A stretch of 28,739 bases of DNA from a virus: IMG/VR virus record IMGVR_UViG_3300008267_000544, positions 1-28,739 of that record. One strand, given 5' to 3'. Under the pieces are notes generated by a model. It was not told the origin of the DNA. It saw only the letters and a program-made list of their open reading frames with translations, and ran no database searches. Positions 1,302-24,189 of the stretch are shown one piece after another; the stretch's first letter is position 1, and each line of letters opens with the position of its first letter. A program made the translations under genes and the position numbers.

Positions 1302-3020
1302 TTAGATCCAGTTGCACCCTTCTCCTGCATCAGCAGCCCGCGCCTGTTCCAGCGTCATCCCCATGGCCATCCGGTCTGGTGTCATCACCACATGGCCGTG
1401 CCAGTCACCGATCATTGCCTCCAGCATTTCAACGCTGCGGGCATCACGCCGTACCTGCTGATCCTGTGCCGCCTGTTCCTGGAACCACTGGACGCACATC
1501 GCCCAGGCATCCAGACGGTCATCGTGCAGCAGTGAGCCACGGTCTGCTGTAAGACGCGTCATTTGATAGAAGAGGCTGTAGGAGCTGTCCTTGTCCTCCA
1601 CCGCAGCCCTAAGCAGTTCGGCGTCCGCCTCAACAACACGCCGATCCACCACCATCCGATGCGTCTGCATCACCGGAGCCAGGGTGTCGATGATCCGTAG
1701 CTCCTTCCGTTGATTGGAGCGGATCGGCTCCACCCGGCAGTTGGCCCCAGCCTTTACCAGGAATGGCTTGAGCAACTGGGCGTAGATCTCCAGGCCGCCG
1801 AAGTTGGTCTCCACCAGGATCTCGTTCACCCGATGCTGTTTGGCCAGGGAGGCGATCTTCTCCCACAAGCTCTCGCCAACGCCCCCCAGGCGTCCACCGG
1901 ATTCCATCAGGTAGTAGTTGCCAGCCCATGCCTTGACGATTGCCCAGGCGAACTCGTCACTGCCCCCACCACTGGGGTCTAGGGCCATGACCGTGGGGAC
2001 TTCCCCAACAGGCACTGTGCCTTCTACTTGGGCTGGGCGGTAGAACCTCGGGTCATGTGCCATGCCAACGCAGGGCAGGTCATCCAACGCCAGGTACTTC
2101 GCCTTCTCGTGGGTGAGCACCTCCGGCAAGTGGCCATCGATGGTCATCACCATCAGGTCAGCGCAACGCAGCGGGTAGCGCTCAATGTCACTGAGGGTGG
2201 CATCCAGGAGGAACTGCAGCTTCCACTGCATGGGGCTCATGCTCAGCTCCCGCTGCAGCAGCTCATCCTCCGAGAAGCGGGTGTCCGTAGGCCGGCCATC
2301 CGAGATGCCCACTCTTTTCTGGATCAGGGGGGCCAAGGCTCCGCGGTATGGGGTGGGGTCAGCTGGCACCCGAGCTGGCCACATCCGCATGTCGTAGTTC
2401 AGGTCACGCTGCAACGCGAAGTAGATGCTGTCCGTTGAGCTATGGGGTGTTCCCAGATAGACAATCTCTGGTCCCTCCCCTGGCTTGAGGATCGCCTCCA
2501 GCTCGTTCAACGAGTTCCGCAGCTTCTCCCGTTGCACCTGGGTCAAACAGGTCTGCGGTGTTTCGCAGTCGTCAACCAGGATCGTGCTGGCACGGGAGCC
2601 TGTGATCTGCCCCGTGATTCCCGCAGCGCGGACACTTGGGCTCTGCTCGATGTTCTTGCAGGTGCCAACGTCGAAGTTGATTCGGCTGTACCGCCCGTCA
2701 TGACTGTCGGGCTGCATGTGCTTCAACCAGGGCACCCGCCCAATGGTCTGCAGCAACCAGGCACTCATGGCTTCTGAACGTGCCATGGAGGCACTGATGA
2801 TCAGACACTTCTCGTCAGGGTCGTGATACAGCTTCCACAGCAAATACATGGCACTGAGCGTGCTCTTACCACACCCCCGAAATGCTGCAATCACCCTCCT
2901 CTTTGGCCCATTCTCCAGATAGTCACTGATCTGCAGCTGTACTGGCGTTGGAGCATCCGCCATGTTCAACTCACGCATCAACAGCGTAATGAACTGGGGC
3001 AGGGGGAGGGTTTGCGTCAC
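1302..3020 (-). CDS. terL: terminase large subunit (DNA maturase B, T7 gp19-like)
   Basis: This is the packaging motor ATPase and nuclease that docks on the portal and cuts concatemeric DNA. The 572 residues match the roughly 586-aa length of T7 gp19. A Walker A motif lies near residues 47-54 (FRGCGKST), a Walker B-like strand follows (STILVDDCETP), and the C-terminal RNase H-fold nuclease shows ALDPSGGGSDEF, VETNFGG and HDDRLDAWAM, with the expected acidic metal ligands. The start overlaps the stop of the upstream 62-aa gene (ATGA), so translation is probably coupled. The gene is transcribed away from the early region and against the replication and capsid genes. In T7 the equivalent gene lies on the same strand as everything else. 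Confidence 0.95.
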   Translation of the reverse strand: MTQTLPLPQFITLLMRELNMADAPTPVQLQISDYLENGPKRRVIAAFRGCGKSTLSAMYLLWKLYHDPDEKCLIISASMARSEAMSAWLLQTIGRVPWLKHMQPDSHDGRYSRINFDVGTCKNIEQSPSVRAAGITGQITGSRASTILVDDCETPQTCLTQVQREKLRNSLNELEAILKPGEGPEIVYLGTPHSSTDSIYFALQRDLNYDMRMWPARVPADPTPYRGALAPLIQKRVGISDGRPTDTRFSEDELLQRELSMSPMQWKLQFLLDATLSDIERYPLRCADLMVMTIDGHLPEVLTHEKAKYLALDDLPCVGMAHDPRFYRPAQVEGTVPVGEVPTVMALDPSGGGSDEFAWAIVKAWAGNYYLMESGGRLGGVGESLWEKIASLAKQHRVNEILVETNFGGLEIYAQLLKPFLVKAGANCRVEPIRSNQRKELRIIDTLAPVMQTHRMVVDRRVVEADAELLRAAVEDKDSSYSLFYQMTRLTADRGSLLHDDRLDAWAMCVQWFQEQAAQDQQVRRDARSVEMLEAMIGDWHGHVVMTPDRMAMGMTLEQARAADAGEGCNWI

Positions 3021-6990: not shown

Positions 6991-7341
6991 ATGTCAAATC
7001 TGTCCAAACTCCACGCGGCAATGCGGTTTTGCCGGCGTGAGCACGCCCAGCTACGCGCAAGCCAGCTGGAGCTGTTGCTAGCCATCCAACTCAAACCAGG
7101 CCAAACCCAGTCAGAGCTTGCTACTGACTGCAGCTTGACCCTTTCGGCTGTCTCTAGGGCGGTCGATGTTATGGGCTCGAAAGGGCGCAGCGACAACAAG
7201 GGTCAAGTGGCCATGCAGTGGGTGGAAACACGCGACAACCCGCATGACGAGCGGATCAAGCAGGTCTATTTGACACAAAAGGGCTCCGAATTCCTTCACC
7301 TATTGGAGATGATCACTTATGGCAGTACGGTTCCGGAGTGA
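6991..7341 (+). CDS. MarR-like winged-helix transcriptional regulator, 116 aa
   Basis: The frame has MarR features: a helical N-terminus, a helix-turn-helix at about residues 45-65 (TQSELATDCSLTLSAVSRAVDVM) and a wing with charged turn (DNPHDERIKQVYLTQKG) ending in GSEFL. MarR-type proteins bind DNA as dimers and usually repress nearby operons. The gene overlaps the integrase start by 23 nt, so the two are co-translated. The ATG at 6991 shares its A with an ACCTTGCAA motif; an alternative ATG at 7021 would shorten the protein by ten residues. A MarR-like gene next to integrase suggests control of integration. Confidence 0.7.
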   Translation: MSNLSKLHAAMRFCRREHAQLRASQLELLLAIQLKPGQTQSELATDCSLTLSAVSRAVDVMGSKGRSDNKGQVAMQWVETRDNPHDERIKQVYLTQKGSEFLHLLEMITYGSTVPE

Positions 7342-8347
7342 CCGAAACAAGTGGTATGCCCAGGTCACCACTGATCACGGTCGATTCTCCAAGTCTTTCG
7401 ATACTGAAAGGGAGGCAACTGAATGGGAGGCCGAGGCCCTTGCTGCCACGGCACCCAAGGTCAAGGCCCACGAGCGGCCCTTCCCACCTACCAGCGAGGG
7501 CTCCCTGGGCCAGCTGGTTCGGGTCTGTGAGCAGATCGACTGGGCCGGGAAGGATGACTCTCAGATGAAGAACGCCCACCGCCTCGTGCGGATGCTTGGC
7601 CCTGACACCCACATCAGGGAGCTGACCATGCGCCGCCTTGACGATCTGGTGGCTGACCTGCGGGTTGCTGGCCCCAAGGGCGAGCCCCTCAGCAACACCA
7701 CGATCCTCAAGTACATCAGCGCCGCCTCGATCATGCTCAAGCGGGCCACCCGGCTTGGCTACATCGATCAGCCACCGCTGCTGCCCGAGAAGCGCACCCT
7801 GCGCACGCCTGAGCCGCGTGATCTGGTCATCTCAGACGAGTGGTTCGCAGCCCTGTTGGACGGCATGGAGAAGCGCGAGCAGCGCCTGTCCATCGCCATC
7901 ACCCTGTTCCTCCGTCAAATGGGCTGCCGTGTCGGCGAGGCCCTCAACCTGACCTGGGATCGGGTTGATCTGAACAGGGCCTGGGTTCAGTTCGTGAAGA
8001 CCAAGGGCTCGATGCCTCGCCGCCTGCCTGCTTCTGAGGAGGTGCTCTCAATCCTCAAGGCGATGAAGGCCCGGAAGACCCAACGCGTCTTCCCGATCCG
8101 CTACTGGACATACCTCACCCACTACTCAGATGCGAAGCACGACGCGTGCGACGCCCTGGGCCTAGGTGACACGGTGCGGAAGGAATGGGTGATCCACACG
8201 CTTCGGCATACCCGGATCACCGAGCTGGCCAGCCAGGGCCACCAGGCACCGGCCATCCAGCAGTGGGCGGGGCACAAGTGCCTTGCAGTAACCCAGCGTT
8301 ACATCCACGGCGCAGGTATCAATCTGCAACCAATGGTCAACTGTTGA
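7319..8347 (+). CDS. int: tyrosine recombinase integrase, 342 aa
   Basis: It catalyses site-specific recombination between phage and host att sites. The C-terminal catalytic domain contains the expected residues: Arg204 in MGCRVGEAL, Lys229 in the beta-hairpin KTKGS, His293-x-x-Arg296 in HTLRH, His319 in WAGHK and nucleophile Tyr328 in TQRYIH. An N-terminal SAM-like core-binding domain spans about residues 60-150. The start lies inside the MarR-like gene. Immediately downstream are GCAACCA repeats and a tRNA-Leu-like core, as expected for an attP beside its integrase. The frame is intact, so the enzyme could be active. Confidence 0.95.
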   Translation: MAVRFRSDRNKWYAQVTTDHGRFSKSFDTEREATEWEAEALAATAPKVKAHERPFPPTSEGSLGQLVRVCEQIDWAGKDDSQMKNAHRLVRMLGPDTHIRELTMRRLDDLVADLRVAGPKGEPLSNTTILKYISAASIMLKRATRLGYIDQPPLLPEKRTLRTPEPRDLVISDEWFAALLDGMEKREQRLSIAITLFLRQMGCRVGEALNLTWDRVDLNRAWVQFVKTKGSMPRRLPASEEVLSILKAMKARKTQRVFPIRYWTYLTHYSDAKHDACDALGLGDTVRKEWVIHTLRHTRITELASQGHQAPAIQQWAGHKCLAVTQRYIHGAGINLQPMVNC

Positions 8348-8562: not shown

Positions 8563-10947
8563 ATGTCCGAACAACAGTCAAACGCTGTCAAGCAACCACT
8601 GCAACCACAGCTTGAGCTGGAGGAGTGGTGCAGATCTACGAGCACAAGCCGTTTCCTGAGAGATGGATGGCAGAAGGGAGCGAGTGGAACAATCGTTCAA
8701 CGGTTGGCATCTCTTTATCTCGAAAAAGTTCTGGAGATCTATGAGAAATCGAAGCTCTCTCCTGGCCGCCAACATCACATTTGGGCATTGATGCACAGCC
8801 GTGAGGCTGTCCGGCATGTTGCACTTGAAAGCCTTGCTTACCTGCTGGGCAACCTCAACGACGAGCGCCCCTACAACCAGATCTGCGGGATTCTCGGGAA
8901 ACGGGCTGAGTACGTCCTCTGGTTGACCCATCCCTCATGGGGGCGTGGCCTGCACCTGCAGGGCCTGCGGCTGGCCAGCAACAACGACCTGTCAATGGGG
9001 CTGATCCGCAAGCGGCTACGGGACAAGGGGTTCCGCAAGGCCGCGGCCTACAGGGAGCTCAAGCATGTGGAGCGGGCTGCCCTGGGTGCCTTCTTCATCG
9101 AGTGCGTGGCCATGAGCACCCAGATGCTGGAGGTGTTCGTGCAGGTGAAGCACCGGCGCAAGACCCGGATGGTCCGCTACACCCCGCTGTACTGGAACTT
9201 CCTCAAGCGCTGGCGGGAGGCGGCCACCCTGTTCCGGCCGCTGTACATGCCGATGGTCCAGCCGCCGCGGCCATGGTCCGGCCATACCGGAGGCGGGTAT
9301 CTGAGCATCGGCTCAACCGTGTCCACCGTTGGGTGGGAGCGCTGGCCTGAAGTCAGCAAGCGGATGCTGCCTTGCGTGCTGGGCAGCATCAACCTGCTGC
9401 AGGCCCAGGCTTACGAGCTGGACCACGCGCAGGTGGCGTTGACTGAAGCGTGCTGGAACCTGGGCCACGAGATGGGCAGCCTGCCCAAGCGTGAGCGGTT
9501 GGCTGAACCCGTCGATGCTGAGTTCAAGGAGCAGGGCCTAGGTCCTTCTGCCTATTGGAAGGCGGTGTGGAAGTGGAAGAGCGATCAACGCAAGGACGGC
9601 CAGCGTTCCCGCTTCATCAATGCACTGATTGCATACCGCCGGCTGGAGGAGGCGCCCTCGATCTGGTTTGTCTGGCACATGGATCACCGGGGCCGCCTGT
9701 ACAGCAGGGGTGCCCAGCTCAACATCCAGGGCCCCGATCACCTGCGCAGCATGACCCGCTTCCACGAGCGCAGCCCGATCAAGGGGCATGAGAAGGCGTT
9801 CGCTTGGAGCCTGGGCGAGGCCCTCGGTACACCGCCCCACCCAGCAGACAGGCTCAGCTACTTGGAACTCATGTCCACCGTGGTGGGCAGGGTGGGTGGT
9901 GACCCGCTCGGCAACATCGGCTATTGGGAGCGGGCCAAAGAACCTTGGCGGTTGATCCAGCTCTGCCGGGACTGGCACCAATACCTGGAGGACCCCGGCT
10001 ACTGCAGCGGCACCATCCACTGGTTGGATCAGACCTGCTCAGGCTGGGGCCACGTGGCCTGCCTGACGGGTGATGGCACGTTGGCTCAGTACACCAACGT
10101 GATTGGCAGCAAGCCAGCTGACCTGTATCTGGGCATCGGAAAGCTGGTCAAGACCAGGATCCGTTGGCAGTGCGAGCAAGAGCACCCCGAGCGGAAGCAA
10201 AAGGCGTTCGAGTGGTGGCGCAACCACGAGATCCCTCGCTCCCTATGGAAGAAGGTGCTGATGCCCGTGATCTATGGGCGCAGCTACCTGAGCCTGGCCG
10301 AGGAGATCAAGCTGTACCTGCGGGATGAGGTGGGTGACTTCCTCACTGATGAAGGTCTGCGGGTGTTGGACCTGGCCTTGACCCTGGCCACCACCGTGAA
10401 CAACGTGGTCAACGAGGCGCTGCCTCATGTGAAAGACCTGAGCCGGTGGCTGGTGACGTTGAGCAACCTGCAGATCGATGCAGGACTGCGGCCCTACTGG
10501 TTCACGCCCAACGGGCTGGCGATTGAGTGCTATCAGTCAGCCACCAAGCGGGACAACATCGAGCTGAACCTGGCCAAGCGGACCATCAGGTTGAGCCTGA
10601 ATGACGCCACTGGTTGCAAGCCAGACAAGCGGAAGACAGCCCGCAAGTTGGTGCCTGACTTCATCCACAGCATGGATGCGGCGTACTTGCAGCGCTTTGT
10701 TGCCCACTGGGGAACGTACAGGCATCCGATTGCAACGATCCATGACTGCTTCGGTACAACGCTGGAGTACGTGGAGACGTTGCAGTCAGAGCTGAATGAT
10801 CAGTGGCACCGCTTCTACTCGGTGGACCACCTGCGTAAACACAAGGAGATGGTTGAGGTTCTGCTTGGGGCTGAAGTCCCTGACCCGCCGATGGTGGGCA
10901 CGCTGGACCGCAGCCGCATCGGCGAGAACCGCTACTTGTTCACTTGA
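8563..10947 (+). CDS. T7-like single-subunit DNA-directed RNA polymerase, 794 aa
   Basis: It transcribes the phage middle and late genes from phage promoters. Catalytic motifs are intact: Asp489 in LDQTCSGWGH (T7 Asp537 region), Lys563 and Tyr571 in WKKVLMPVIYGRSY (T7 Lys631 and Tyr639, same eight-residue spacing), PDFIHSMDAAYL, and Asp728 in IHDCFGT (T7 Asp812). At 794 residues it is shorter than T7 RNAP (883), with reduction mainly in the N-terminal and intermediate regions, as in other cyanopodoviruses. The ATG at 8563 lies 22 nt downstream of the att-associated inverted repeat, so integration would separate this gene from the early operon. Confidence 0.95.
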   Translation: MSEQQSNAVKQPLQPQLELEEWCRSTSTSRFLRDGWQKGASGTIVQRLASLYLEKVLEIYEKSKLSPGRQHHIWALMHSREAVRHVALESLAYLLGNLNDERPYNQICGILGKRAEYVLWLTHPSWGRGLHLQGLRLASNNDLSMGLIRKRLRDKGFRKAAAYRELKHVERAALGAFFIECVAMSTQMLEVFVQVKHRRKTRMVRYTPLYWNFLKRWREAATLFRPLYMPMVQPPRPWSGHTGGGYLSIGSTVSTVGWERWPEVSKRMLPCVLGSINLLQAQAYELDHAQVALTEACWNLGHEMGSLPKRERLAEPVDAEFKEQGLGPSAYWKAVWKWKSDQRKDGQRSRFINALIAYRRLEEAPSIWFVWHMDHRGRLYSRGAQLNIQGPDHLRSMTRFHERSPIKGHEKAFAWSLGEALGTPPHPADRLSYLELMSTVVGRVGGDPLGNIGYWERAKEPWRLIQLCRDWHQYLEDPGYCSGTIHWLDQTCSGWGHVACLTGDGTLAQYTNVIGSKPADLYLGIGKLVKTRIRWQCEQEHPERKQKAFEWWRNHEIPRSLWKKVLMPVIYGRSYLSLAEEIKLYLRDEVGDFLTDEGLRVLDLALTLATTVNNVVNEALPHVKDLSRWLVTLSNLQIDAGLRPYWFTPNGLAIECYQSATKRDNIELNLAKRTIRLSLNDATGCKPDKRKTARKLVPDFIHSMDAAYLQRFVAHWGTYRHPIATIHDCFGTTLEYVETLQSELNDQWHRFYSVDHLRKHKEMVEVLLGAEVPDPPMVGTLDRSRIGENRYLFT

Positions 10948-11063: not shown

Positions 11064-11657
11064 GTGCCCAAGTTTGTGTCTCCCATCGGAGCCATGGTGT
11101 TCGGCAGCATTGTCGAACCACGCGAGAACCCCAACAGCGGCAAGGTCGAGTGGAACCTCGGCTTTGTTCTCAGTTTGGAAGACTCCAACACCATCATGGA
11201 GAACATCGCAACAGCTGTTGCTGCAAAGCGTGCCGCCAACCCCAAGTTCCCTCAGACGGACGACAAGCTGAAGTTCCCCTACCGCCCCTCGCAGCGCCGC
11301 AATGAGGAGGGCGAGAAGGAAATGGACCCCGACAACCTGCTCTGGAACTTCAAGCGCAACGCCACCTACCAGACCAAGACCGGAGAGATCAAGCAGAACA
11401 ATCCCCCTGCTCTGTACGACAGCCTCGGCCGCCTTGTCACCGGCACTATCGACCGCGTGCCCTCAGGCACCACGGGCAAGGTGGTCTACGACATCTACGT
11501 GTACGACATGCCCGGTGCCAAGGGCGTGTCCCTGCAGATCGTTGGCTTCCAGATCGCAGAGATGAAGAAGATCGAGACTGACCTGGCGCCTATCGAAGGT
11601 GGCTGGGTGCCGGACGAGATCGACGACATTGCCGCTGCCCTAGCCGCCGATGCTTGA
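11064..11657 (+). CDS. single-stranded DNA-binding protein (T7 gp2.5-like), 197 aa
   Basis: The GTG start at 11064 has an AGGAG site about eight nucleotides upstream (ATCAGGAGTAATTC). The protein begins with an OB-fold-like region (MPKFVSPIGAMVFGSI) and ends with an acidic tail (DEIDDIAAALAADA), the feature T7 gp2.5 uses to contact DNA polymerase and helicase. It is somewhat shorter than T7 gp2.5 (232 aa). Position after RNA polymerase and before endonuclease I is the T7 order. The acidic tail is retained although its usual partner, DNA polymerase, is not seen in the window. Confidence 0.85.
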   Translation: MPKFVSPIGAMVFGSIVEPRENPNSGKVEWNLGFVLSLEDSNTIMENIATAVAAKRAANPKFPQTDDKLKFPYRPSQRRNEEGEKEMDPDNLLWNFKRNATYQTKTGEIKQNNPPALYDSLGRLVTGTIDRVPSGTTGKVVYDIYVYDMPGAKGVSLQIVGFQIAEMKKIETDLAPIEGGWVPDEIDDIAAALAADA

Positions 11658-12189
11658 CCGGTACAACCGGCGAGTACGCAGCAAGAACGACAAGGAGCGC
11701 CGCTCCAAGCTTGAAGATGAAGTGGAGCAAGCCCTGATTAACCAGGGCTACTCACCTGAGTACGAGAGCGAGCGGTTCTCCTACGTCTTGCATCGGAAGT
11801 ACCGCCCCGACTTCAAGGTGGGCAACGTGTATGTGGAGGTGAAGGGCTGGTGGCCACCGGCGGAACGATCCAAGTTCCTGGCGGTGATCTTGAACAACCC
11901 TGGCCTGCCGATCTTTGTGGCGCTGCAACGTCCCAACTTGACGTTGAACAAGCAAAGCAAAACCACCTACTCAGAGTGGTGCTCTAAACACGGCATCGCC
12001 TGGTGTCCCATCCCCATCCCACCGGAGTTCATGAAGCAATGGCAAGAGGGAGCGCGACCCACATTCCATGTCCCAACGAGGAGTGCGGGAGCTCGGACGC
12101 AGCAACCGAGTACCCAGACGGTTCTATTTACTGCTTCTCATGTCAACAGCGATTCACTTCAGACGGACAACCTTGGAAACAGTCAATGA
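11650..12189 (+). CDS. endonuclease I (T7 gp3-like Holliday-junction resolvase), 179 aa
   Basis: It resolves branched DNA and helps degrade host DNA. The catalytic core is visible as RSKLEDEVEQAL, YRPDFKVGNVYVEVKGWW and the downstream strand PIFVAL. The D-x(n)-E-x-K arrangement fits the PD-(D/E)XK resolvase fold. The start overlaps the SSB stop. T7 gp3 is 149 aa; the extra C-terminal 30-50 residues (after about residue 130) are encoded over the start of the primase gene and are low in recognisable structure, so the tail is probably dispensable. Confidence 0.85.
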   Translation: MLDRYNRRVRSKNDKERRSKLEDEVEQALINQGYSPEYESERFSYVLHRKYRPDFKVGNVYVEVKGWWPPAERSKFLAVILNNPGLPIFVALQRPNLTLNKQSKTTYSEWCSKHGIAWCPIPIPPEFMKQWQEGARPTFHVPTRSAGARTQQPSTQTVLFTASHVNSDSLQTDNLGNSQ

Positions 12190-13697
12190 GTACAACGGCA
12201 AAGCGAGCCTTCTCAGGCTTGCCACGCACTGATTCAGTCACCGCCAAGGCCAGCCTCCTGGTTGGCAAGGCCGCAGGCGTCCCCACTCGCAAGATCACCG
12301 AGCGGACCTGTCGCCTGTTTGGCTATGACGCTGCTACCTACCGAGGGCAGCAAGCGCAGATCGCCAACTACCGGGATGAGAACGGGCTCACCGTTGCTCA
12401 GCACATCCGGTATGGCGAGAAGCAATTCGCCTGGCTTGGCCGGGAGAAGGGTCTCAAGATCCAACTCTTCGGCCAGCACCTTGGCACCGATGGCACGCTC
12501 ATCCTTACCGAGGGCGAGGTCGATGCCATGTCGGTCTACGAGTGCTTGTACAAGCACCGCCACCAAAACAAGTTTGTTGTTGCCTCGATCCCCGATGGAG
12601 CAGCCTCGGCCAAGAAGTCATGCACTGATCAGCTGGCTTACATCCTGGGCTTCAAGCGGGTCGTCATCTTCATGGATACAGACGAGCCCGGCCGCAAGGC
12701 TGCTGCTGATCTGGCTGCACTTATCGGCCCTACTGCTGCTATCGCAGGAGGCTTCCCTTACAAGGACGCCAATGAGGCGTGGATGGCCGATGACTACAAC
12801 GCCATCCTTGAAGCCATCAACAACGCCAGGCGCCATCGGCCGGAGGCGATTGTCCACGCACCAGATCTCCTTGAGAAAGTCCTCAAGCCTGAGCACCGCT
12901 TTGGCTTGCCATACCCCTGGGCCGGGTGGAACCGGATGACCGAGGGCATGAAACCGGGGCAGCTGGTGATGGTGTCCGGGGGAACCGGGATCGGGAAGAG
13001 CCTGTTCACCCGCAGCATCGCCTTGCATCTCTGCCGAGATCACAAGGTCAAGGTTGCCTACATCGGCCTTGAGGAAAGCTGCGAGACCAGCCTGGAGCGA
13101 ATGCTGTCTGAACAGATGGGCGTTCCGCTTCACCTCGATAAGCCAGAGGAGAGGGCAGCTCGGGAGCCGGCAACCATTCGCTCAGCGATGGACGCTTTCG
13201 CCAACAACCTGTTCTTATTGGACAAGTTCGGCAGTGATGACTTCGACTCTTTTGTTGCCACCGTTAAACATTATGTCCTGGGGGAGCAGTGCCAAGTTGT
13301 TGTCCTTGATCACTTCTCCTTGCTCGCGGATGGCATTGCCCTCAATGCTGATCAGCGCAGGGCTATTGATCGCTGCATCAAGGATCTCAAGACGCTGTGC
13401 GTCGAGCTCAACTTCACGATGGTCGTCGTGTGTCACCTCTCCAGAAGCGGTGGTATTGGCCCATCTCACGAAGAAGGAGGCGAGCCAAGTCTTGCGGAAC
13501 TTAGAGGGTCACACAGTCTGGCCCAAATCCCGGACTTCGTAGTCATGTTGCAGCGCAACCCCCGCGCTGAAGACAAGGAGGAAGCCAACACCACTACCTG
13601 TTGGCTGAAGAAGAACCGGGTCAAGGGCGAGCTTGGCCCCATGTGCAAGCTCAAGTACCTGAGCAGCTTCTGTCGATTCCAGGAGATCGATGCGTAG
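12039..13697 (+). CDS. DNA primase-helicase (T7 gp4-like), 552 aa
   Basis: It unwinds the fork and makes primers. From the ATG at 12039 the domains are: a zinc-binding motif (IPCPNEECGSSD ... YCFSC, about residues 8-35), a TOPRIM primase core (LTEGEVDAMSVYE and IFMDTDEPG), and a RecA-like helicase with Walker A SGGTGIGKS (Lys320, Ser321), a Walker B-like VVVLDHFSL and a VVVCHLSR sensor. Length matches T7 gp4 (566 aa). An upstream in-frame GTG at 12003 would add 12 residues; 12039 starts just before the zinc motif and is preferred. It overlaps endonuclease I by about 150 nt in another frame. Confidence 0.93.
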   Translation: MARGSATHIPCPNEECGSSDAATEYPDGSIYCFSCQQRFTSDGQPWKQSMSTTAKRAFSGLPRTDSVTAKASLLVGKAAGVPTRKITERTCRLFGYDAATYRGQQAQIANYRDENGLTVAQHIRYGEKQFAWLGREKGLKIQLFGQHLGTDGTLILTEGEVDAMSVYECLYKHRHQNKFVVASIPDGAASAKKSCTDQLAYILGFKRVVIFMDTDEPGRKAAADLAALIGPTAAIAGGFPYKDANEAWMADDYNAILEAINNARRHRPEAIVHAPDLLEKVLKPEHRFGLPYPWAGWNRMTEGMKPGQLVMVSGGTGIGKSLFTRSIALHLCRDHKVKVAYIGLEESCETSLERMLSEQMGVPLHLDKPEERAAREPATIRSAMDAFANNLFLLDKFGSDDFDSFVATVKHYVLGEQCQVVVLDHFSLLADGIALNADQRRAIDRCIKDLKTLCVELNFTMVVVCHLSRSGGIGPSHEEGGEPSLAELRGSHSLAQIPDFVVMLQRNPRAEDKEEANTTTCWLKKNRVKGELGPMCKLKYLSSFCRFQEIDA

Positions 13698-13920
13698 CTC
13701 AATCGTTAGTGCCGAGGGGTACAACCCCATCAACCGCGGCCGCACTTTTTCTGATGATCCTAAGCACCCACTATGGAAGATCCAGGTCAAGTTCCCAACA
13801 GCGAAGCCAATGGTGGAGCTGATCAAAGCTCCGACCAAACAGGCAGCGATCCAGTACGCGAAGACCAAGTACCCGGAGTCCGAAATCTCATTGCTTACGG
13901 CTACTCCTGTGCGCCGCTAG
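13690..13920 (+). CDS. small hypothetical protein, 76 aa
   Basis: The ATG at 13690 lies within the last codons of the primase gene (eight-nt overlap). The basic 76-residue protein (MRSSIVSAEGYNPINRGRTF ... ATPVRR) contains LWKIQVKFP followed by a helix (KQAAIQYAKTKYPESEI), a beta-alpha pattern. No motif is recognised. It occupies the place where T7 carries DNA polymerase and is far too short to be one. Confidence 0.65.
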   Translation: MRSSIVSAEGYNPINRGRTFSDDPKHPLWKIQVKFPTAKPMVELIKAPTKQAAIQYAKTKYPESEISLLTATPVRR

Positions 13921-14120
13921 ACCCGGACACTGAGTACCGCATCTGGGGTTCATACATCAACTCGATGTGTGACCACGCCATTGAACACTTCAACAACGCA
14001 CCCAACCCTGATTATGCCCAAACGTCGTTCGCCCAAGCCTTCTGGAACGGTTACGGAGTCGCAGCCGGAATCCTTAGAAACACCATCAGGAGCTATCCCG
14101 TTAATCCAAAGGTGCAATGA
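13773..14120 (+). CDS. hypothetical protein, up to 115 aa (start uncertain)
   Basis: The only ATG available is at 13773, giving a 148-nt overlap with the previous gene and a low-complexity acidic N-terminus (NSEANGGADQSSDQ). The believable coding part begins near residue 40 (NLIAYGYSCAPLDPDTEY) and continues with GSYINSMCDHAIEHFNN and AFWNGYGVAAGILRNT. A non-standard start near 13890 cannot be excluded. No family is recognised. Confidence 0.55.
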   Translation: MEDPGQVPNSEANGGADQSSDQTGSDPVREDQVPGVRNLIAYGYSCAPLDPDTEYRIWGSYINSMCDHAIEHFNNAPNPDYAQTSFAQAFWNGYGVAAGILRNTIRSYPVNPKVQ

Positions 14121-14304
14121 CGCCTACTGGTTTCCTGACTCGCGTTATGCGCTGTCTGATTCGGTGCGTATGGCGTCCGCCCTCAAGATCATTGCCGACG
14201 AGGTGGATGAGTGGTCGGCGGAGTGCAAGGCCAAGGGTTCGGAGATCGTTGCCCTTGCTCTACATGGGGTGGCGGAACGGCTCAGAGATGCAACAAATGT
14301 CTAG
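14014..14304 (+). CDS. hypothetical protein, about 96 aa (start uncertain)
   Basis: The convincing part is the C-terminal two-thirds: NDAYWFPDSRYALSDSV, then a charged helical region (ASALKIIADEVDEWSAECKA and ALHGVAERLRDATNV). The in-frame ATG at 14014 overlaps the previous gene by 107 nt; another ATG lies at 13969, and GTG 14164 or ATG 14170 are possible shorter starts. No ribosome binding site decides between them. Function unknown. The next gene starts inside its last codons. Confidence 0.5.
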   Translation: MPKRRSPKPSGTVTESQPESLETPSGAIPLIQRCNDAYWFPDSRYALSDSVRMASALKIIADEVDEWSAECKAKGSEIVALALHGVAERLRDATNV

Positions 14305-14536
14305 TACCCCTTTCACCCCTGCGGTCGTGGAGGAGAGCTGGCTCAGCGACACCGTTCATGCGCAGCACATCTCCAGAGATGGAGTCAGTGATCTGTACAT
14401 CGGTGGAGTCGGCAACAAGTCGATTGTCTTCTACAGCCTGCAAGACCTATCCCAATGGTTCATTGAGCATGGCATCGATGCTGATGATCCTGTCTGGCTG
14501 TACCTGGAACACCTTGCCAACGAGGAAACGAACTGA
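14288..14536 (+). CDS. small hypothetical protein, 82 aa
   Basis: In-frame ATGs at 14288 and 14297 overlap the end of the preceding gene; either is plausible. The acidic protein reads MQQMSSTPFTPAVVEES and later FYSLQDLSQWFIEHGIDADD, then VWLYLEHLANEETN. It looks like a compact alpha-beta fold with no membrane segment or catalytic motif. Its stop overlaps the next start (TGATG). Confidence 0.6.
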   Translation: MQQMSSTPFTPAVVEESWLSDTVHAQHISRDGVSDLYIGGVGNKSIVFYSLQDLSQWFIEHGIDADDPVWLYLEHLANEETN

Positions 14537-14796
14537 TGGGACTATCTGCAACAGGCCCTGACTGCCCCTCCTGCGGGGCATGGATCACCAAGGTGATCCT
14601 CACCAGGGCCAACACAGCCTGCGACGAGTTGATCAGGCGTCGCCACTGCCACTACTGCGATCACCGCTTTTACACCAGGCAGGTGAGAGAGGAGATCGTT
14701 GACGTGAAGTGGGTGCCTGGCGCCAACGGGAAGTCAACGATTCCCAAGGTGATCAAGGTCTATGACACACCACTTAAGGGGAGGGCTGCAGCGTGA
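14536..14796 (+). CDS. small zinc-ribbon protein, NrdR N-domain-like, 86 aa
   Basis: Two Cys pairs, CPSC (residues 10-13) and CHYC (residues 38-41), flank a basic linker ending IRRRHCHYCDHRFYTRQ. This closely follows the N-terminal zinc ribbon of the NrdR repressor (CPxCG, RRRxCxxC, RFxT). The ATP-cone that completes NrdR is absent. A stand-alone ribbon could bind DNA or assist the replisome. No ribonucleotide reductase gene is in the window, so a true NrdR role is doubtful. The start overlaps the upstream stop and the stop overlaps the exonuclease GTG. Confidence 0.65.
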   Translation: MGLSATGPDCPSCGAWITKVILTRANTACDELIRRRHCHYCDHRFYTRQVREEIVDVKWVPGANGKSTIPKVIKVYDTPLKGRAAA

Positions 14797-15632
14797 CCAT
14801 CTTTCTGCTTGACGGCGACATGCTGCTGATGCGTGCCGCCACTGCCACAGAGGTAGAGGTGCAGCTGGGTGACGACGTATGGACGCGTCACAGTGAGCTG
14901 CCCCAGGCCAGGGAGATGTACTGGCAACAGGTCGAGGCCTGGTGTACCCAGTTCGAGATCACCTTGGATGACGTGTGGCACTGCTTCACCGAAGCCAGTG
15001 CCTTCCGCAAGGAGATCTACCCCGGCTACAAGGCGAACCGGAAGAACAAGCCCAAGCCGATTGGGTACAAGCAGTTGAAGGCGGAGATCATGGGGGAGCC
15101 GAACGCGTTCTGCTTCCACCAGATCGAGGCGGACGATCTCATCGGGATCTTCGCCACCATGCCGGAAGCGAAGGATGAGCGTGTCGTCATCGCGGCACGT
15201 GACAAAGACTTAATGCAAATCCCTGGCATCCACGTGTGGATGGATGAGGGGCAAGATGTGGAGGATCAAGATGGACTTGTGGTTCAACGCGTCAATGGCA
15301 ACGTCATCCAGACCAATTCGCCAGAACATGCCGAGCGCTTCACGTACCAGCAATACCTATCGGGTGACTCGACCGATGGGATCCCAGGCTGCCCCGGCCT
15401 GGGACCCGTGGGAGCCGCACGACTCGTCAAGGAGTTCGACATCACGCAGCCTGTGGATTGTTGGGAAGCGGTTGTTCGGGCGTATGAGAAGGCACAGAGC
15501 AAGAAGAAACTTGATCTATACAACGCACCCGAGTACGCCACGCAGCAAGCGCGACTAGCTCGCATCCTGCGACATGGCGAGTATGACTTCAACACCCACA
15601 AGGTCACGCTATGGAATCCCCCGACACGTTGA
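14793..15632 (+). CDS. 5'-3' exonuclease (T7 gp6-like), 279 aa
   Basis: It removes RNA primers and degrades host DNA. The GTG start at 14793 overlaps the upstream gene by four nucleotides (GTGA). FEN-type motifs are present: FLLDGDMLL at the N-terminus, YPGYKANRKNK, EADDLIG, AARDKDLMQIPG, and the helix-3-turn-helix GDSTDGIPGCPGLGPVGAA. These supply the acidic two-metal ligands. Length is close to T7 gp6 (300 aa). In T7, gp5 DNA polymerase sits between gp4 and gp6; here only small ORFs do. Confidence 0.92.
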   Translation: MTIFLLDGDMLLMRAATATEVEVQLGDDVWTRHSELPQAREMYWQQVEAWCTQFEITLDDVWHCFTEASAFRKEIYPGYKANRKNKPKPIGYKQLKAEIMGEPNAFCFHQIEADDLIGIFATMPEAKDERVVIAARDKDLMQIPGIHVWMDEGQDVEDQDGLVVQRVNGNVIQTNSPEHAERFTYQQYLSGDSTDGIPGCPGLGPVGAARLVKEFDITQPVDCWEAVVRAYEKAQSKKKLDLYNAPEYATQQARLARILRHGEYDFNTHKVTLWNPPTR

Positions 15633-15793: not shown

Positions 15794-16844
15794 GAAAAAG
15801 TCCTCTCCGACAAAGGTCCAAACCAATGCCGGAGTCAACCCAATGGGCGCTCCTGCAAAGCCAGCAGCTGTGTCATCAATCGCGGCGGCTGGTCCTGTAC
15901 TTAGCAAGAGCGAAGCGAGAAGCATCGCCGATGCCAAAGGCAAGACGGTCGCCCAGGTTATGGCCAACGCCCAAAACAAAGGCGTTGCGCTTGGATCTGG
16001 CTTGGTCAACCAGTTCAACAGTGGAAAGCTTGGACCAAACACGGCAATAGCCGGCACAAAAGCCTTTGACGCACTGCGCGGGCTTCAAGGCCTGCAGATG
16101 AATCCAGGCACGGCCTACGCCGGCTACAGCACCACAAGCACGCCTGCCAGTCGTTCCGTCAATGGCGGCTACACCAGTGGTTCTTCGACAATCAATCCGA
16201 TTGTCCTGCCACGAAACATCGTCAGAGCTGCCGCTGGCGCAACCGGCACGGCCAGCGGCGGAACCGGCGGGACTGGTGGAACCGGCGGGACTGGTGGAAC
16301 CGGCGGGACTGGTGGAACCGGCGGGACTGGTGGGAAAGGGGGCAAAGGCAACAAGCCCGGCACCCAGGGGTACATCAACAGCCAGTTCGACGCCTACCAG
16401 GAGTGGGCTCAAACCACTATTGACACGCTGACAACAGGCCAAGACGTACTGACCCAGCAGATCCTTGACCTGCAGACGCGTAATGATCAGAACGTTGCCG
16501 ACATCATGGCAACGTTCAACGATCAGCTGTCCGCAACTCAAAGCGCAGCAGATGAGCAGATCGCTGGGCTGCAGAACTTGATGATGCAGCAGGAGCAGCA
16601 GTTCCAGCAGGCCAACCTCGCTCAGCAGCAGCAGGCCGCTGCAGCCCAAGCCTCCTATGAGGAGCAGCGTCGTCAGGCCGAAGCTCTTGCTCGTGCCTAT
16701 GTCCCGAACATGGAGCCCACCGCTTCCAACCTGACCTACGGCAGCAACAAGAAGCAGGAGGACACCAACCTGCTGTCCAGCCTGACGATGCTCTCCCCCG
16801 CTAGCTCCACTTCGCCTTACCTCGCCGGTCTGCAAATCGCATGA
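15786..16844 (+). CDS. gp7.3-like tail-assembly or virion protein with Gly-Thr repeat, 352 aa
   Basis: The start is ATG 15786, one codon after a TTG. The N-terminus is basic (MGKKKSSPTKVQ) as in T7 gp7.3, and the gene lies just before the portal, where T7 has gp7.3. The middle carries a Gly-Gly-Thr repeat (about residues 157-182) encoded by four exact 18-bp units, then a Gln-rich coiled coil (MMQQEQQFQQANLAQQQQ) and a short conserved-looking end (SPYLAGLQIA). It is probably a particle-associated scaffold or tail-assembly protein. The assignment rests on position and composition; it is far longer than T7 gp7.3 (99 aa). Confidence 0.65.
   Translation: MGKKKSSPTKVQTNAGVNPMGAPAKPAAVSSIAAAGPVLSKSEARSIADAKGKTVAQVMANAQNKGVALGSGLVNQFNSGKLGPNTAIAGTKAFDALRGLQGLQMNPGTAYAGYSTTSTPASRSVNGGYTSGSSTINPIVLPRNIVRAAAGATGTASGGTGGTGGTGGTGGTGGTGGTGGTGGKGGKGNKPGTQGYINSQFDAYQEWAQTTIDTLTTGQDVLTQQILDLQTRNDQNVADIMATFNDQLSATQSAADEQIAGLQNLMMQQEQQFQQANLAQQQQAAAAQASYEEQRRQAEALARAYVPNMEPTASNLTYGSNKKQEDTNLLSSLTMLSPASSTSPYLAGLQIA
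16260..16331 (+). repeat. 18-bp minisatellite, four exact tandem copies
   Basis: GGAACCGGCGGGACTGGT is repeated four times without change (16260, 16278, 16296, 16314), encoding Gly-Thr-Gly units in the gp7.3-like protein. Exact identity, including third positions, points to recent expansion. Confidence 0.85.
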
Positions 16845-19376: not shown

Positions 19377-20414
19377 ATGGCTGCACCTAACGCAACACTG
19401 TCTCGCCCCGGTGCTATTAACAACACCACGGGTACTTGGGCACAGGACAACGCCCTGTTCCTCAAGGTCTTTTCCGGAGAGGTTCTGACCAGCTTTGAGC
19501 GGAACTGCATCTTCGATGGCCTGGTCCAGACCCGCTCGATTCAAAACGGCAAGAGCGCCCAGTTCCCCGTGACGGGCCGCTTCACCAGTCGCTACATGAC
19601 CCCCGGTGAAATGCTCACCGGTCAGGGCAACATGGCCCAAAACGAGGTGGTCATCAAGATCGATGATCTGCTGATCGCTGATGCCTCGATCTTCGACCTG
19701 GATGAGGCCAAGACCCACTACGACATTCGCTCGATCTACTCGGTTGAGCTTGGTCGTGCCATGGCTCGGAGCTATGACAAGCGCCTGGCCCGCGTGCTGA
19801 CCCTGGCTGCTCGCACCAGCACCAGCGACCTCACCGCCAACCTGCCCACCGGCTTGTCTCCTGACGATCCGTACCGCGTTGGCACCCGCATCGACATCAA
19901 CAAGGCCACTCCCACCCCGGACGACCTGGTTGCCTCGGTGTTTGCTGCCGCTCAGGCACTGGACCAGAAGGACATCCCCGCTGATGGCCGCGTACTCGTC
20001 TGCTCGCCTGACGTGTACTACACGCTGATCCAGTCCAGCCGGGCCGTGAACAGCGATTTCAACCAGCCTGGCGCCAACGGTGGTTATGCCTCTGGCCAGA
20101 TTTCTCGTCTGGCTGGCTTCACTATCCTGAGCAGCAACCACATCCAACAAGGCAACGTCACTGCCCCCACTGGCGAGCAGGGCTATACCTTTGGTGGTAC
20201 TGACACTGTGCTGTCTTCTGTGAACATGAGCACCACCAAGATGCTTGCGTTCCAGAAGGGTGCAGTTGGTGTCGTGAAGCTGCGTGATCTGACCATGCAG
20301 ATGACCGGCAACGATTACGCCGTGACTCACCAAGCCACCCTGATGGTTTCCAAGATGGCTTATGGCGCAGGTCCCCTGCGTCCTGAAGCTGTGGTTGAAA
20401 TCCACAACGGTTGA
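19377..20414 (+). CDS. major capsid protein (T7 gp10-like), 345 aa
   Basis: It forms the icosahedral shell with the HK97 fold. The sequence shows the family pattern: NNTTGTWAQDNALFLKVFSG, EVLTSFERN, KSAQFPVTGRF, DEAKTHYDIRSIYSVELGRA and a C-terminal VHQATLMV-like region (AVTHQATLMVSKMAYG). Length equals T7 gp10A (345 aa). A CTAGGAGCCACATC leader gives a good ribosome binding site. A GC hairpin with U-tract lies downstream. The frame after the stop remains open in +1, see findings. Confidence 0.95.
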   Translation: MAAPNATLSRPGAINNTTGTWAQDNALFLKVFSGEVLTSFERNCIFDGLVQTRSIQNGKSAQFPVTGRFTSRYMTPGEMLTGQGNMAQNEVVIKIDDLLIADASIFDLDEAKTHYDIRSIYSVELGRAMARSYDKRLARVLTLAARTSTSDLTANLPTGLSPDDPYRVGTRIDINKATPTPDDLVASVFAAAQALDQKDIPADGRVLVCSPDVYYTLIQSSRAVNSDFNQPGANGGYASGQISRLAGFTILSSNHIQQGNVTAPTGEQGYTFGGTDTVLSSVNMSTTKMLAFQKGAVGVVKLRDLTMQMTGNDYAVTHQATLMVSKMAYGAGPLRPEAVVEIHNG

Positions 20415-20949: not shown

Positions 20950-21575
20950 TGACTGAGCTGGAGGCGATCAACACGCTGCTGTCCGTCATCGGGGAGGCGC
21001 CCATTGATCGCCTCAGTGACATCAGCGTCAACGAGATCACGGACAGCGCCCTGGCCCGCAAGGTGTTGGGTGAAGTTGAACGTGACGTACAGGCGGAAGG
21101 CTGGTCGTGGAACACCGACAGCGAAGTGCCGCTGCAGATGAATGGCTCAAATGAGTTTCCCATCATCAGCAGCGCGTTGTCGGTGCAGTTCTCGCCAGCC
21201 CGTTACCCCAACATGCAGTACGTGGCACGGGGTAACCGTGTCTACGACAGGCTGCAGCGCAAGTTCAACTTTGGGGTGACCGGCATGTCACCGCTGTATG
21301 TGGACCGGATTGTCACCAGGCTGTCCTGGGATGAACTGCCCCATGCAGCGCAGCAGTACATCACGATCCGTGCGGCCCGGATCTATGCCGACCGCTACCT
21401 GAATAGCAACGCGATCTACGCGTACACCGTCCAAGACGAGGAGTACGCCCGCGCCATGTTGATCAGGGATGAGGAGCGGCAGCTCAATAACAATCTGCTT
21501 TGGGGCAATGACCGGGGTGCTGGTCAAGGCCTTGGCTACATCCCTGCAGAGGGTGTCAACTACCGGAGAGTCTGA
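20949..21575 (+). CDS. tail tubular protein A (T7 gp11-like), 208 aa
   Basis: It forms the upper tail ring under the portal. The N-terminus ELEAINTLLSVIGEAPI is a family hallmark, followed by DSALARKVLGEVERDVQAEGW, and the C-terminal helix has AARIYADRYL. Length is close to T7 gp11 (196 aa). Starts and stops interlock with both neighbours (TGATG). Confidence 0.93.
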   Translation: MTELEAINTLLSVIGEAPIDRLSDISVNEITDSALARKVLGEVERDVQAEGWSWNTDSEVPLQMNGSNEFPIISSALSVQFSPARYPNMQYVARGNRVYDRLQRKFNFGVTGMSPLYVDRIVTRLSWDELPHAAQQYITIRAARIYADRYLNSNAIYAYTVQDEEYARAMLIRDEERQLNNNLLWGNDRGAGQGLGYIPAEGVNYRRV

Positions 21576-23470
21576 TGCGTTCCAAGTCTCGGCTGACCCC
21601 TCGGCGTGAGGTGCCAGCAAGCCTGGTGCAGGCCAACGTTGATTCGTTGACCCAGGGCATCAGCCAGCAACCTGCCCACCTGCGTCAGGTGGGTCAAGCC
21701 GAGAAGCAGGTGAATGCCTGGAGCTCTCCGGTGGAAGGTCTGACCAAACGCAGACCGACGAAGTACGTGGCCAGGGTGAACTCCAGCCCGGTCACGGACT
21801 TCTTCATGGAGTTCATGCAGGTCACCCAAGGGGAGACCTACAGCCTGATGTTGTATCCCAGCGGATCTGGGATGAAATTGCAGCTGATGAACAACGGCGC
21901 AGCCCCTGCTCTGGATGTGCACGGGACTGGGCTGAGCGTGTCGGCCTCGCCTGGCGCAATCGACATTGCCAACACCGGCTACCTCTACAACGCTGGATCG
22001 GAGTTCAGCGACAAGTACGTCTTTATCAACAGTGGCCCGCTTGGCCTGCTGCTGAACCGGGAGAAGGTGACGGCGATGGATGCCGCCACCAAGGCCGCCA
22101 AGGTCAACGAGGCCATGCTGTTCATTCAGGGTGTTGCCTATGAGATCACCTATCGGGTGACACTGAACGGCACAGCTCTGACTGCCTACACCACGCCAGC
22201 CGCTACGGCGACGCCGAACACGATCAGCACCACGCTGGTCGCCAACAACCTGGCCAGCACTATCGGCGCAGTCAGCGGGTTCACCGTGACCCAGGTGGGT
22301 CCGATTGTCTACGTGAAGAAGACAGACGGCAGCGACTTCACGATCAGCATTGACGACGGCCGCAGCAACACGCTGGCCAGGGCAATCAAGGGCAAGGTCA
22401 CAACGGTCAGTCAGCTTCCCACCCAGGCGTACAACGGGATGATCCTGCAGGTGGACTCCAACCCTGGGGACAACCTGGATGACTATTGGGTGCAGTTCTC
22501 TACTGACGATCCCACCGTCAACATTGGCCCTGGTAACTGGCAGGAGGTGACCCAGCCAGGCCAGCAGTACAAACTCAACGTGGACACCATGCCGCTGGTG
22601 ATCTACCGCAGGGATACCAACGTGGTGTTTGTCGGCCCAGCGGATGGGGCCACTCGTTCATTGACTGTTGGCCCAACGACCTACAGCTTCACGTTCCCCA
22701 AGTGGTCTGAGCGGGATACAGGCAACTCGACCACGGTTGAAACGCCAGCCTTTGTTGGGCAGAAGATCAGGGACCACGTGCTGTTTCGCGGTCGCTATGC
22801 GGTGTGCGCTGGGCAGGCGGTCATGTTCAGCGCAACTGACGAGCCGTTCCGTTTCTTCCAGAAGACCTCGACCCAGCTCCTAGACACCGACTCGTTTGAC
22901 GTAAGAGCGAGCTCGGAGCGAGGGGAGGAGCTGAACTGGCTGCTCCCTATCGATGAATCCCTGCTGGCCTTCAGCCAGTCCAGTCAGTTCCAGGTGAGGG
23001 CGGCTGACGTTGACGTGTTGACGCCCAGGACCGCCACGATCCTGCGCCTGACCAACATCGAGATGAACCCCTACCTGCGGCCCAAGATCGCAGGACCGAC
23101 GATCATCTTCTCCACCAAGGAAGCCGGATACACCAACTTCCGGGAGTACCAGTTTGTTGACAACCAACAGCGCAGGTTGGGCTTGAACCTGGGCAGCAGC
23201 CTCAACATCAGTCTGCACGCTCCTAAGTACATCAAGGGTATTGCAACGCATTGGGACGTTGACGAAAGCCTTGACTACTTCTTGTGCAGCTCGCCAGATG
23301 ATCGCAAGAAGCTGTTCATCTACAAGGCAAGAAGCTGTTCATCTACAAGTACCTGTACCAGGCGACAGGCGGCGGTACTGCTAAATCCCAGGCCAGTTGG
23401 AGTGAGTGGACGTTTGACGGGGACATCCGCTACATGCGCTTCCTCGACGGCGATCTGTGGTTGGTCATGA
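21575..23470 (+). CDS. tail tubular protein B (T7 gp12-like), N-terminal part before frameshift
   Basis: It forms the tail nozzle. The N-terminus (SLVQANVDSLTQGISQQP then LRQVGQAEKQVNAWSSPVEG) is diagnostic for gp12. About 584 residues are in frame up to 23326; then an exact second copy of a 23-bp segment shifts the frame. The last 47 residues (ARSCSSTSTCTRRQ onward) are out-of-frame nonsense ending at 23470. The natural continuation lies in the ORF ending at 24189. With one copy removed the protein would be 863 residues, in line with gp12 proteins (T7 794 aa). Confidence 0.9.
   Translation: MRSKSRLTPRREVPASLVQANVDSLTQGISQQPAHLRQVGQAEKQVNAWSSPVEGLTKRRPTKYVARVNSSPVTDFFMEFMQVTQGETYSLMLYPSGSGMKLQLMNNGAAPALDVHGTGLSVSASPGAIDIANTGYLYNAGSEFSDKYVFINSGPLGLLLNREKVTAMDAATKAAKVNEAMLFIQGVAYEITYRVTLNGTALTAYTTPAATATPNTISTTLVANNLASTIGAVSGFTVTQVGPIVYVKKTDGSDFTISIDDGRSNTLARAIKGKVTTVSQLPTQAYNGMILQVDSNPGDNLDDYWVQFSTDDPTVNIGPGNWQEVTQPGQQYKLNVDTMPLVIYRRDTNVVFVGPADGATRSLTVGPTTYSFTFPKWSERDTGNSTTVETPAFVGQKIRDHVLFRGRYAVCAGQAVMFSATDEPFRFFQKTSTQLLDTDSFDVRASSERGEELNWLLPIDESLLAFSQSSQFQVRAADVDVLTPRTATILRLTNIEMNPYLRPKIAGPTIIFSTKEAGYTNFREYQFVDNQQRRLGLNLGSSLNISLHAPKYIKGIATHWDVDESLDYFLCSSPDDRKKLFIYKARSCSSTSTCTRRQAAVLLNPRPVGVSGRLTGTSATCASSTAICGWS
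23304..23349 (+). repeat. exact 23-bp tandem duplication breaking tail tubular protein B
   Basis: Positions 23304-23326 and 23327-23349 are identical, and each begins GCAAGAAGCTGTTC. As 23 is not a multiple of three, the frame shifts. Deleting one copy restores RKKLFIYKYLYQATGGG and a continuous gene. It is either a replication-slippage mutation or an assembly artefact. Confidence 0.95.
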
Positions 23471-24189
23471 CCTACCCGGATGGCACCTACAACTGCACTT
23501 TGTCGATTGATGAGCTGCGGGTCACTACCGAGCCAGAGATCCTGCTGGATCGAAAGGTCAACTACCCCGAGTGCAATGCGAACGTTGCACTTACGGACAA
23601 CATCACTGCCAGCTACAGCGCCGCTACGAACCTGACAACGTTCACCTTGCCGTATCAGATGCAGGGTGAAACCAAGGCTGTGATCAGGTTCGACAACAGC
23701 CGGCTGAAGGGGCTACAGCTCGGCATTGCAACCACTGGCACAACCATCGTCTGCACAGAACGGGGCGACTACACCGGAGACAAGATCTCTTTTGGCCGCA
23801 CCTACACGATGGAGTACGAGTTCAGCACCCCGTACACCGTTGAGAAGGACCAGGCCAGAAGTCGAATCATTGGCGATCTGGATGGGCGACTGCAGGTTGC
23901 GACCTGGACCACCCACCATCAAGAGACTGGTGAGTACGAAGTTGTTGTGCGTCGCCTGAACAGGGCGAATGACAGCCGCCAGCAGTTCCGCAGCCGCAGG
24001 CTCAACGTGCTGAACAACTTGATCAGCACAGAGACAAGTGTGCTTGAGAATGGCAGGTTTCGTGTTCCTGTTTATTCACGCAATACGCAATGCAGCGTGA
24101 CGATTGAAAGTAGCAGCTGGCTCCCGGTGACGATCACTGGTGCTTCATGGGAGGGCAATTACACTAATCGCAGCAAGAGCTTGAACTAA
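23434..24189 (+). CDS. tail tubular protein B, C-terminal part after frameshift
   Basis: This frame continues the gp12-like protein after the 23-bp duplication; it is open from within the second repeat copy. The ATG at 23434 is merely the first Met (MRFLDGDLWLVMTYPDGTYN) and not a likely native start. The C-terminal features DGTYNCTLSIDELRV, FGRTYTMEYEFSTPYTVEKD and SVTIESSSWLPVTITGASWEG are typical of nozzle-protein ends. Its stop TAA overlaps the next ATG. Confidence 0.85.
   Translation: MRFLDGDLWLVMTYPDGTYNCTLSIDELRVTTEPEILLDRKVNYPECNANVALTDNITASYSAATNLTTFTLPYQMQGETKAVIRFDNSRLKGLQLGIATTGTTIVCTERGDYTGDKISFGRTYTMEYEFSTPYTVEKDQARSRIIGDLDGRLQVATWTTHHQETGEYEVVVRRLNRANDSRQQFRSRRLNVLNNLISTETSVLENGRFRVPVYSRNTQCSVTIESSSWLPVTITGASWEGNYTNRSKSLN

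Follow-up and report, generated by a model that had tools for sequence, protein, structure and literature searches.

The window analysed here (the whole of a linear virus record, 28,739 bases long) appears to come from a temperate T7-like phage which lost its DNA polymerase gene, gp5, long ago, and which would unwind and prime its own DNA and leave synthesis to a host polymerase, most likely Pol III; we give this reading a probability of roughly 0.7. T7 provides the textbook minimal replisome, in which gp5 is central. The initial annotation held that T7 and the cyanopodoviruses carry gp5 between helicase and exonuclease, a view that is outdated, as 18 cyanopodoviruses without a DNA polymerase have been isolated, forming the clade MPP-C (Cai et al. 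ISME J 2022, PMC9860041). Polymerase-less cyanopodoviruses have thus been known since 2022 and, as MPP-C was published earlier, the window is not the first of them, but appears to represent a separate branch, which has in addition lost the tails of gp4 and gp2.5. The features of the window are as follows.

1302..3020, minus strand: terminase large subunit (T7 gp19-like); PHROG 38, E 4e-89; PF22530
6991..7341, plus strand: MarR-like regulator; PHROG 9665, E 1e-16
7319..8347, plus strand: tyrosine integrase; PHROG 1, E 1e-41; PF00589
8456..8498, plus strand: probable attP, 43 nt, reads as the 5' half of a tRNA-Leu(UAA) gene (tRNA identity by eye)
8563..10947, plus strand: T7-like RNA polymerase; PHROG 414, E 5e-104; PF00940
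11064..11657, plus strand: gp2.5-like SSB without a C-terminal phenylalanine; PHROG 112, E 8e-16
11650..12189, plus strand: endonuclease I (gp3-like); PHROG 945, E 1e-32; PF05367
12039..13697, plus strand: gp4-like primase-helicase with zinc-binding, Toprim and helicase domains; PHROG 239, E 4e-139; PF03796, PF21268, PF13155; alignment
13690..13920, plus strand: gene A, 76 aa, predicted beta-beta-alpha-beta, conserved across the clade
13773..14120, plus strand: gene B, at most 115 aa, start uncertain; homologues in 31 clade contigs
14014..14304, plus strand: gene C, about 96 aa, helical; homologue in S-SRP02, E 2e-8
14297..14536, plus strand: gene D, about 79 aa, start taken from homologues; homologues in 29 clade contigs
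14536..14796, plus strand: gene E, 86 aa, NrdR-like zinc ribbon; PF22811, E 4e-8, above cut-off
14793..15632, plus strand: gp6-like 5'-3' exonuclease; PHROG 107, E 4e-55; PF02739
16841..18430, plus strand: portal (gp8-like); PHROG 449, E 1e-161
19377..20414, plus strand: major capsid protein; PHROG 267, E 7e-84

T7-like packaging and head genes, RNA polymerase, primase-helicase and exonuclease are all present by profile matches, and the module runs in the order MarR, integrase, RNA polymerase, SSB, endonuclease I, primase-helicase, five small genes, exonuclease. The primase-helicase frame is extendable to a GTG at 12003, but the ATG at 12039 is the likely start, as most relatives have a stop just upstream. 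Compared with Krakvirus and the longer relatives, roughly 13–15 kb of late genes are absent from the window. Two gene structures differ from those of relatives: tail tube B is broken by a frame break (21575–23470 and 23434–24189) where close relatives have a single 863-aa ORF, and the lysis ORF at 25760–27244 (494 aa) is a fusion, represented in one relative (G006) by two ORFs of 378 and ~121 aa. The protein encoded between exonuclease and portal contains a Gly-Gly-Thr run, produced by an array of 9-nt repeats (GGT GGA ACC / GGC GGG ACT) at 16257–16346.

The primase-helicase ends at 13697 and the exonuclease starts at 14793, and both these coordinates and the lack of a polymerase in the 1.1 kb between them, as first annotated, were borne out: the ORFs of the interval gave no polymerase match against PHROGs or Pfam, and the family A polymerase profile (PF00476) matched nowhere in the 28,739 bases of the record. 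Absence from the window would by itself be no proof, as the window is a linear fragment with the late genes outside it. PF00476 also had no match in 21 related contigs or in the five named complete genomes (Krakvirus, Oinezvirus, Nohivirus, Stopalavirus and S-SRP02), and the family B, viral B, Pol III alpha and prim-pol profiles (PF00136, PF03175, PF07733 and PF09250) had none in seven relatives of 38–45 kb or in the same five genomes. The PF00476 search was sensitive enough for the purpose, as it found the polymerase in 12 of 12 polymerase-bearing T7-like control genomes and contigs (S-TIP37, S45C18, P-RSP2, two distant contigs, T7, HTVC019P, CRP-361, LUZ100, S-CBP42, RHEph01 and YIMV22061); the only negatives in the comparison set were P-SCSP2, the group G9 genomes and S-SRP02. 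Three of the long genomes are probably complete, given their overlapping ends, which suggest circles or terminal redundancy: G008 (41,897) and G011 (41,906) have identical ends of 24–25 bp, and Krakvirus (41,987) of 50 bp. A helicase scan of viral contigs returned 39 loci, including ~30 contigs with both helicase and exonuclease of the window's clade; in these the interval was always short (~0.66 to 1.5 kb), in Krakvirus and one further locus (L034) it was 0.2–0.35 kb, and in polymerase-bearing relatives 1.8–2.6 kb. Judged from these sequences, the phage is truly without a DNA polymerase gene.

The position of the window was determined with a 22-genome tree based on terminase, portal, capsid and tail tube A; the sample is small, and the group was picked with the trait in mind. 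The window groups with Krakvirus (support 100/100) within a clade of seven polymerase-less genomes (97/98), which includes Oinezvirus, Nohivirus, Stopalavirus and S-SRP02 and is sister to the polymerase-bearing P-RSP2, and MPP-C branches elsewhere. Forcing all polymerase-less genomes together was rejected (delta lnL 55.8, AU p 8.65e-6). With polymerase-bearing outgroups, two losses of gp5 are the simplest reading, the loss in the window's branch apparently being independent of that in MPP-C.

The MPP-C phages (Prochlorococcus phages P-SCSP1a-u and P-SCSP2; absence confirmed in P-SCSP2 by the PF00476 search) are, like the window, T7-like picocyanobacterial phages that keep RNA polymerase, an SSB-like gene, primase-helicase and exonuclease, with a gp4 that has no aromatic end. 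However, the helicase of P-SCSP2 and P-SCSP1u is followed immediately by the exonuclease, whereas the window has five small genes between the two, MPP-C keeps the phenylalanine end of gp2.5, and the window falls outside the P-SCSP1/P-SCSP2 group in the tree. Krakvirus S39C11 (AP013549.1; group G9 of Mizuno et al. 2013, PMC3861242; Autographiviridae) is collinear with the window from MarR and integrase through to the tail tube and has no polymerase (identity to the window: helicase 54%, portal 70%, terL 72%), but is marine, with lower GC (0.52) and a shorter helicase-exonuclease interval. S-SRP02 (MW822601.1) and Stopalavirus S38C3, of the same polymerase-less clade, keep a T7-like RNA polymerase, SSB and exonuclease but, unlike the window, have no primase-helicase (PF03796 absent from both, seven other genomes positive) and carry an SSB with a bacterial-SSB-like PF tip (EEIPF in S-SRP02, L062; DDDMPF in Stopalavirus S38C3, L067). 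We considered this tip as host-replisome mimicry and rejected it, as the same tip occurs in the polymerase-bearing S45C18 and RHEph01. S-SRP02 shares with the window homologues of genes C and E and a lysis peptidase stretch of 78% identity. The nearest polymerase-bearing relative in the packaging/head tree, P-RSP2 (HQ332139.1), differs from the window in that a family A polymerase separates its helicase from its exonuclease, and in that both gp4 and gp2.5 keep their aromatic ends.

In T7, gp4 and gp2.5 dock the polymerase via acidic C-terminal tails ending in phenylalanine. The paper on the gp2.5 phenylalanine is cited as reference 23 by PMC9917605. Among the polymerase-bearing relatives examined, gp2.5 ended in phenylalanine in 13 of 13 and gp4 had an aromatic end in 10 of 13. 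The window SSB ends EIDDIAAALAADA, with no terminal phenylalanine, so that its description as an SSB with an acidic tail in the initial annotation is only partly right, the T7-type tail being absent. In the window's subclade gp2.5 ends ALAADA or similar, and gp4 ends SFCRFQEIDA or similar, with a net charge of ~+1 over the last 20 residues; in a few members gp4 ends VAF or VAAF, with no acidic stretch. The T7 replisome features, gp5 together with acidic, aromatic-ended tails on gp4 and gp2.5, are not found in the window. The pattern is uneven across polymerase-less phages, as MPP-C has lost the aromatic gp4 end but kept the gp2.5 phenylalanine, and Oinezvirus and Nohivirus have kept the aromatic gp4 end though the polymerase is absent. 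The tail losses fit the loss of a polymerase partner, in what would be few independent events. T7-like phages would then have lost gp5 on two or more occasions, with the docking tails going too on one of them and the helicase as well in some relatives, and this repeated loss makes the coupling of a phage helicase and SSB to a bacterial polymerase testable.

With no recognisable polymerase in complete relatives, use of a host polymerase, which the initial annotation had offered as one of two possibilities, is the best remaining reading, reached by exclusion. The phage would supply RNA polymerase, SSB, a Holliday-junction nuclease, primase-helicase and 5'-3' exonuclease, its helicase would unwind and prime, and synthesis would be carried out by a host enzyme, most likely the Pol III holoenzyme. 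In support, S-SRP02 of the same clade grows (PMC8790148) without a polymerase gene. We infer Pol III over Pol I by argument: the task calls for a processive replicative polymerase, and the gp5-like contacts that Pol I could be expected to use have disappeared. For MPP-C, host Pol I, host Pol III and an unrecognised polymerase have all been proposed (PMC9860041). Recruitment of Pol I to the phage gp4 helicase would have the merit that Pol I is of family A, like T7 gp5, and that the phage brings its own 5'-3' exonuclease; we nevertheless consider it unlikely, as both gp4 and gp2.5 are without the C-terminal features of polymerase-bearing relatives, and it is well established that Pol I, with its low processivity, serves mainly in repair (PMC9860041).

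A phage-encoded DNA polymerase too divergent for current profiles, the option left open for MPP-C (PMC9860041), is very unlikely here. Several large late-region proteins are without a family match, including three internal-virion or tail proteins of ~1,000 aa each with no Pfam match, but these sit among internal virion and tail genes, next to a protein that does match an internal virion protein, whilst genes A to E, at 76 to 115 aa, are too small for one and the docking tails expected with a polymerase are absent. That a 2 kb polymerase gene was dropped in assembly, or sits in a portion of the phage that was not sequenced, is scarcely credible: the window is a linear fragment without its late genes, yet ~30 independently assembled relatives show this junction too, which does not bear out a collapsed interval, and no polymerase was found in the seven close relatives of 38–45 kb or the complete Krakvirus, which cover the missing part, so that these data do not support a move of the polymerase out of the window. 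A satellite using the polymerase of a helper phage would also explain the absence from the window, but hardly comes into question, as relatives carry full sets of T7-like packaging, head, tail, lysis and RNA polymerase genes and S-SRP02 is an isolate reported to grow on a strain of Synechococcus (PMC8790148).

The five short, heavily overlapping ORFs first annotated between helicase and exonuclease do correspond to five genes, whilst the heavy overlap is partly an effect of the ORF caller, as homologues shift the start of gene C downstream to ~14014 and that of gene D to ~14297. Homologues of the five proteins were found in 24 to 31 clade contigs. Median dN/dS, a rough ratio here given the overlapping frames, was 0.23 for gene A (13690–13920), 0.25 for gene E (14536–14796), 0.27 for gene C (frame of 13969–14304) and 0.38 for gene D (frame of 14117–14536). 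Gene B (13773–14120) gave 0.61 over the whole ORF, with clear conservation in the C-terminal half only, and its N-terminal part may therefore be non-coding. Profile searches recovered gene A in Nohivirus (E 1e-30), gene C in S-SRP02 (E 2e-8) and gene E in both S-SRP02 (E 9e-21) and Nohivirus (E 7e-7), whilst no polymerase-bearing genome tested gave a convincing match to any of the five and Krakvirus held no clear homologues. Structural models of genes A and C (pLDDT 77 and 78) had no significant PDB match, and PHROG scans with the two families returned no matches. More speculatively, genes A to E may couple the phage helicase to the host replisome. An extended version, possible but rather doubtful, is that the T7 replisome was dismantled stepwise, with gp5 and the docking tails going first (window, Krakvirus) and gp4 afterwards (S-SRP02, Stopalavirus), and that genes A, C and E, detected only in the polymerase-less clade, are new adaptors passing the fork to the host Pol III replisome.

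Lysogeny is likely, given the integrase and the 43-nt tRNA-Leu(UAA)-like attP between integrase and RNA polymerase. This attP candidate is conserved in the window and six relatives, and S-TIP37 has a similar tRNA-Leu piece after its integrase; ARAGORN found no tRNA in the window. The host is probably a freshwater picocyanobacterium, as suggested by the kinship with S-SRP02, the shared lysis peptidase stretch and the tRNA-Leu attP, S-SRP02 being an isolate that infects and grows on a freshwater Synechococcus strain (PMC8790148). A bacterial genome search yielded no convincing prophage, and its sole close match, a short contig in a Planctomycetia MAG, is likely a misbinned phage.

Published annotation conceals the absence of the polymerase. 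The S-SRP02 gene labelled 'DNA polymerase I' (L062:22389–23129) contains, in Pfam, only 5'-3' exonuclease domains, and the published S-SRP02 tree used a gene called DNA polymerase (PMC8790148). An Oinezvirus gene (L065:20750–21481) also bears the label 'DNA polymerase I' and lies in the size range of a 5'-3' exonuclease. In a literature search that had subscription journals and preprints outside its scope, we found no published mention of a missing polymerase in Krakvirus or S-SRP02. Surveys of cyanopodoviruses based on polymerase genes overlook the window's freshwater lineage too. A sliding clamp was considered as a replacement and rejected, since the 'DNA polymerase III beta subunit' of S-SRP02 gives only a weak PF02767 match (0.0065, below cut-off), finds no counterpart in the PDB or in other phages and shows no kinship to window ORF 4389.

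Likewise rejected as a replication enzyme was the reverse transcriptase of one relative (G011, IMGVR_UViG_3300020162_001586), which belongs to a diversity-generating retroelement (L053:9024–12253). The reverse transcriptase gene lies at 9024–10052 (PHROG 1423, 1e-95), with template and variable repeats near 10310 and 10850 on the minus strand, and all 17 mismatches between them over 90 nt fall at a template A. The variable copy is located near the 3' end of the gene for a 512-aa late protein, and a second reverse transcriptase, 36% identical to that of G011, is present in another relative (G018).
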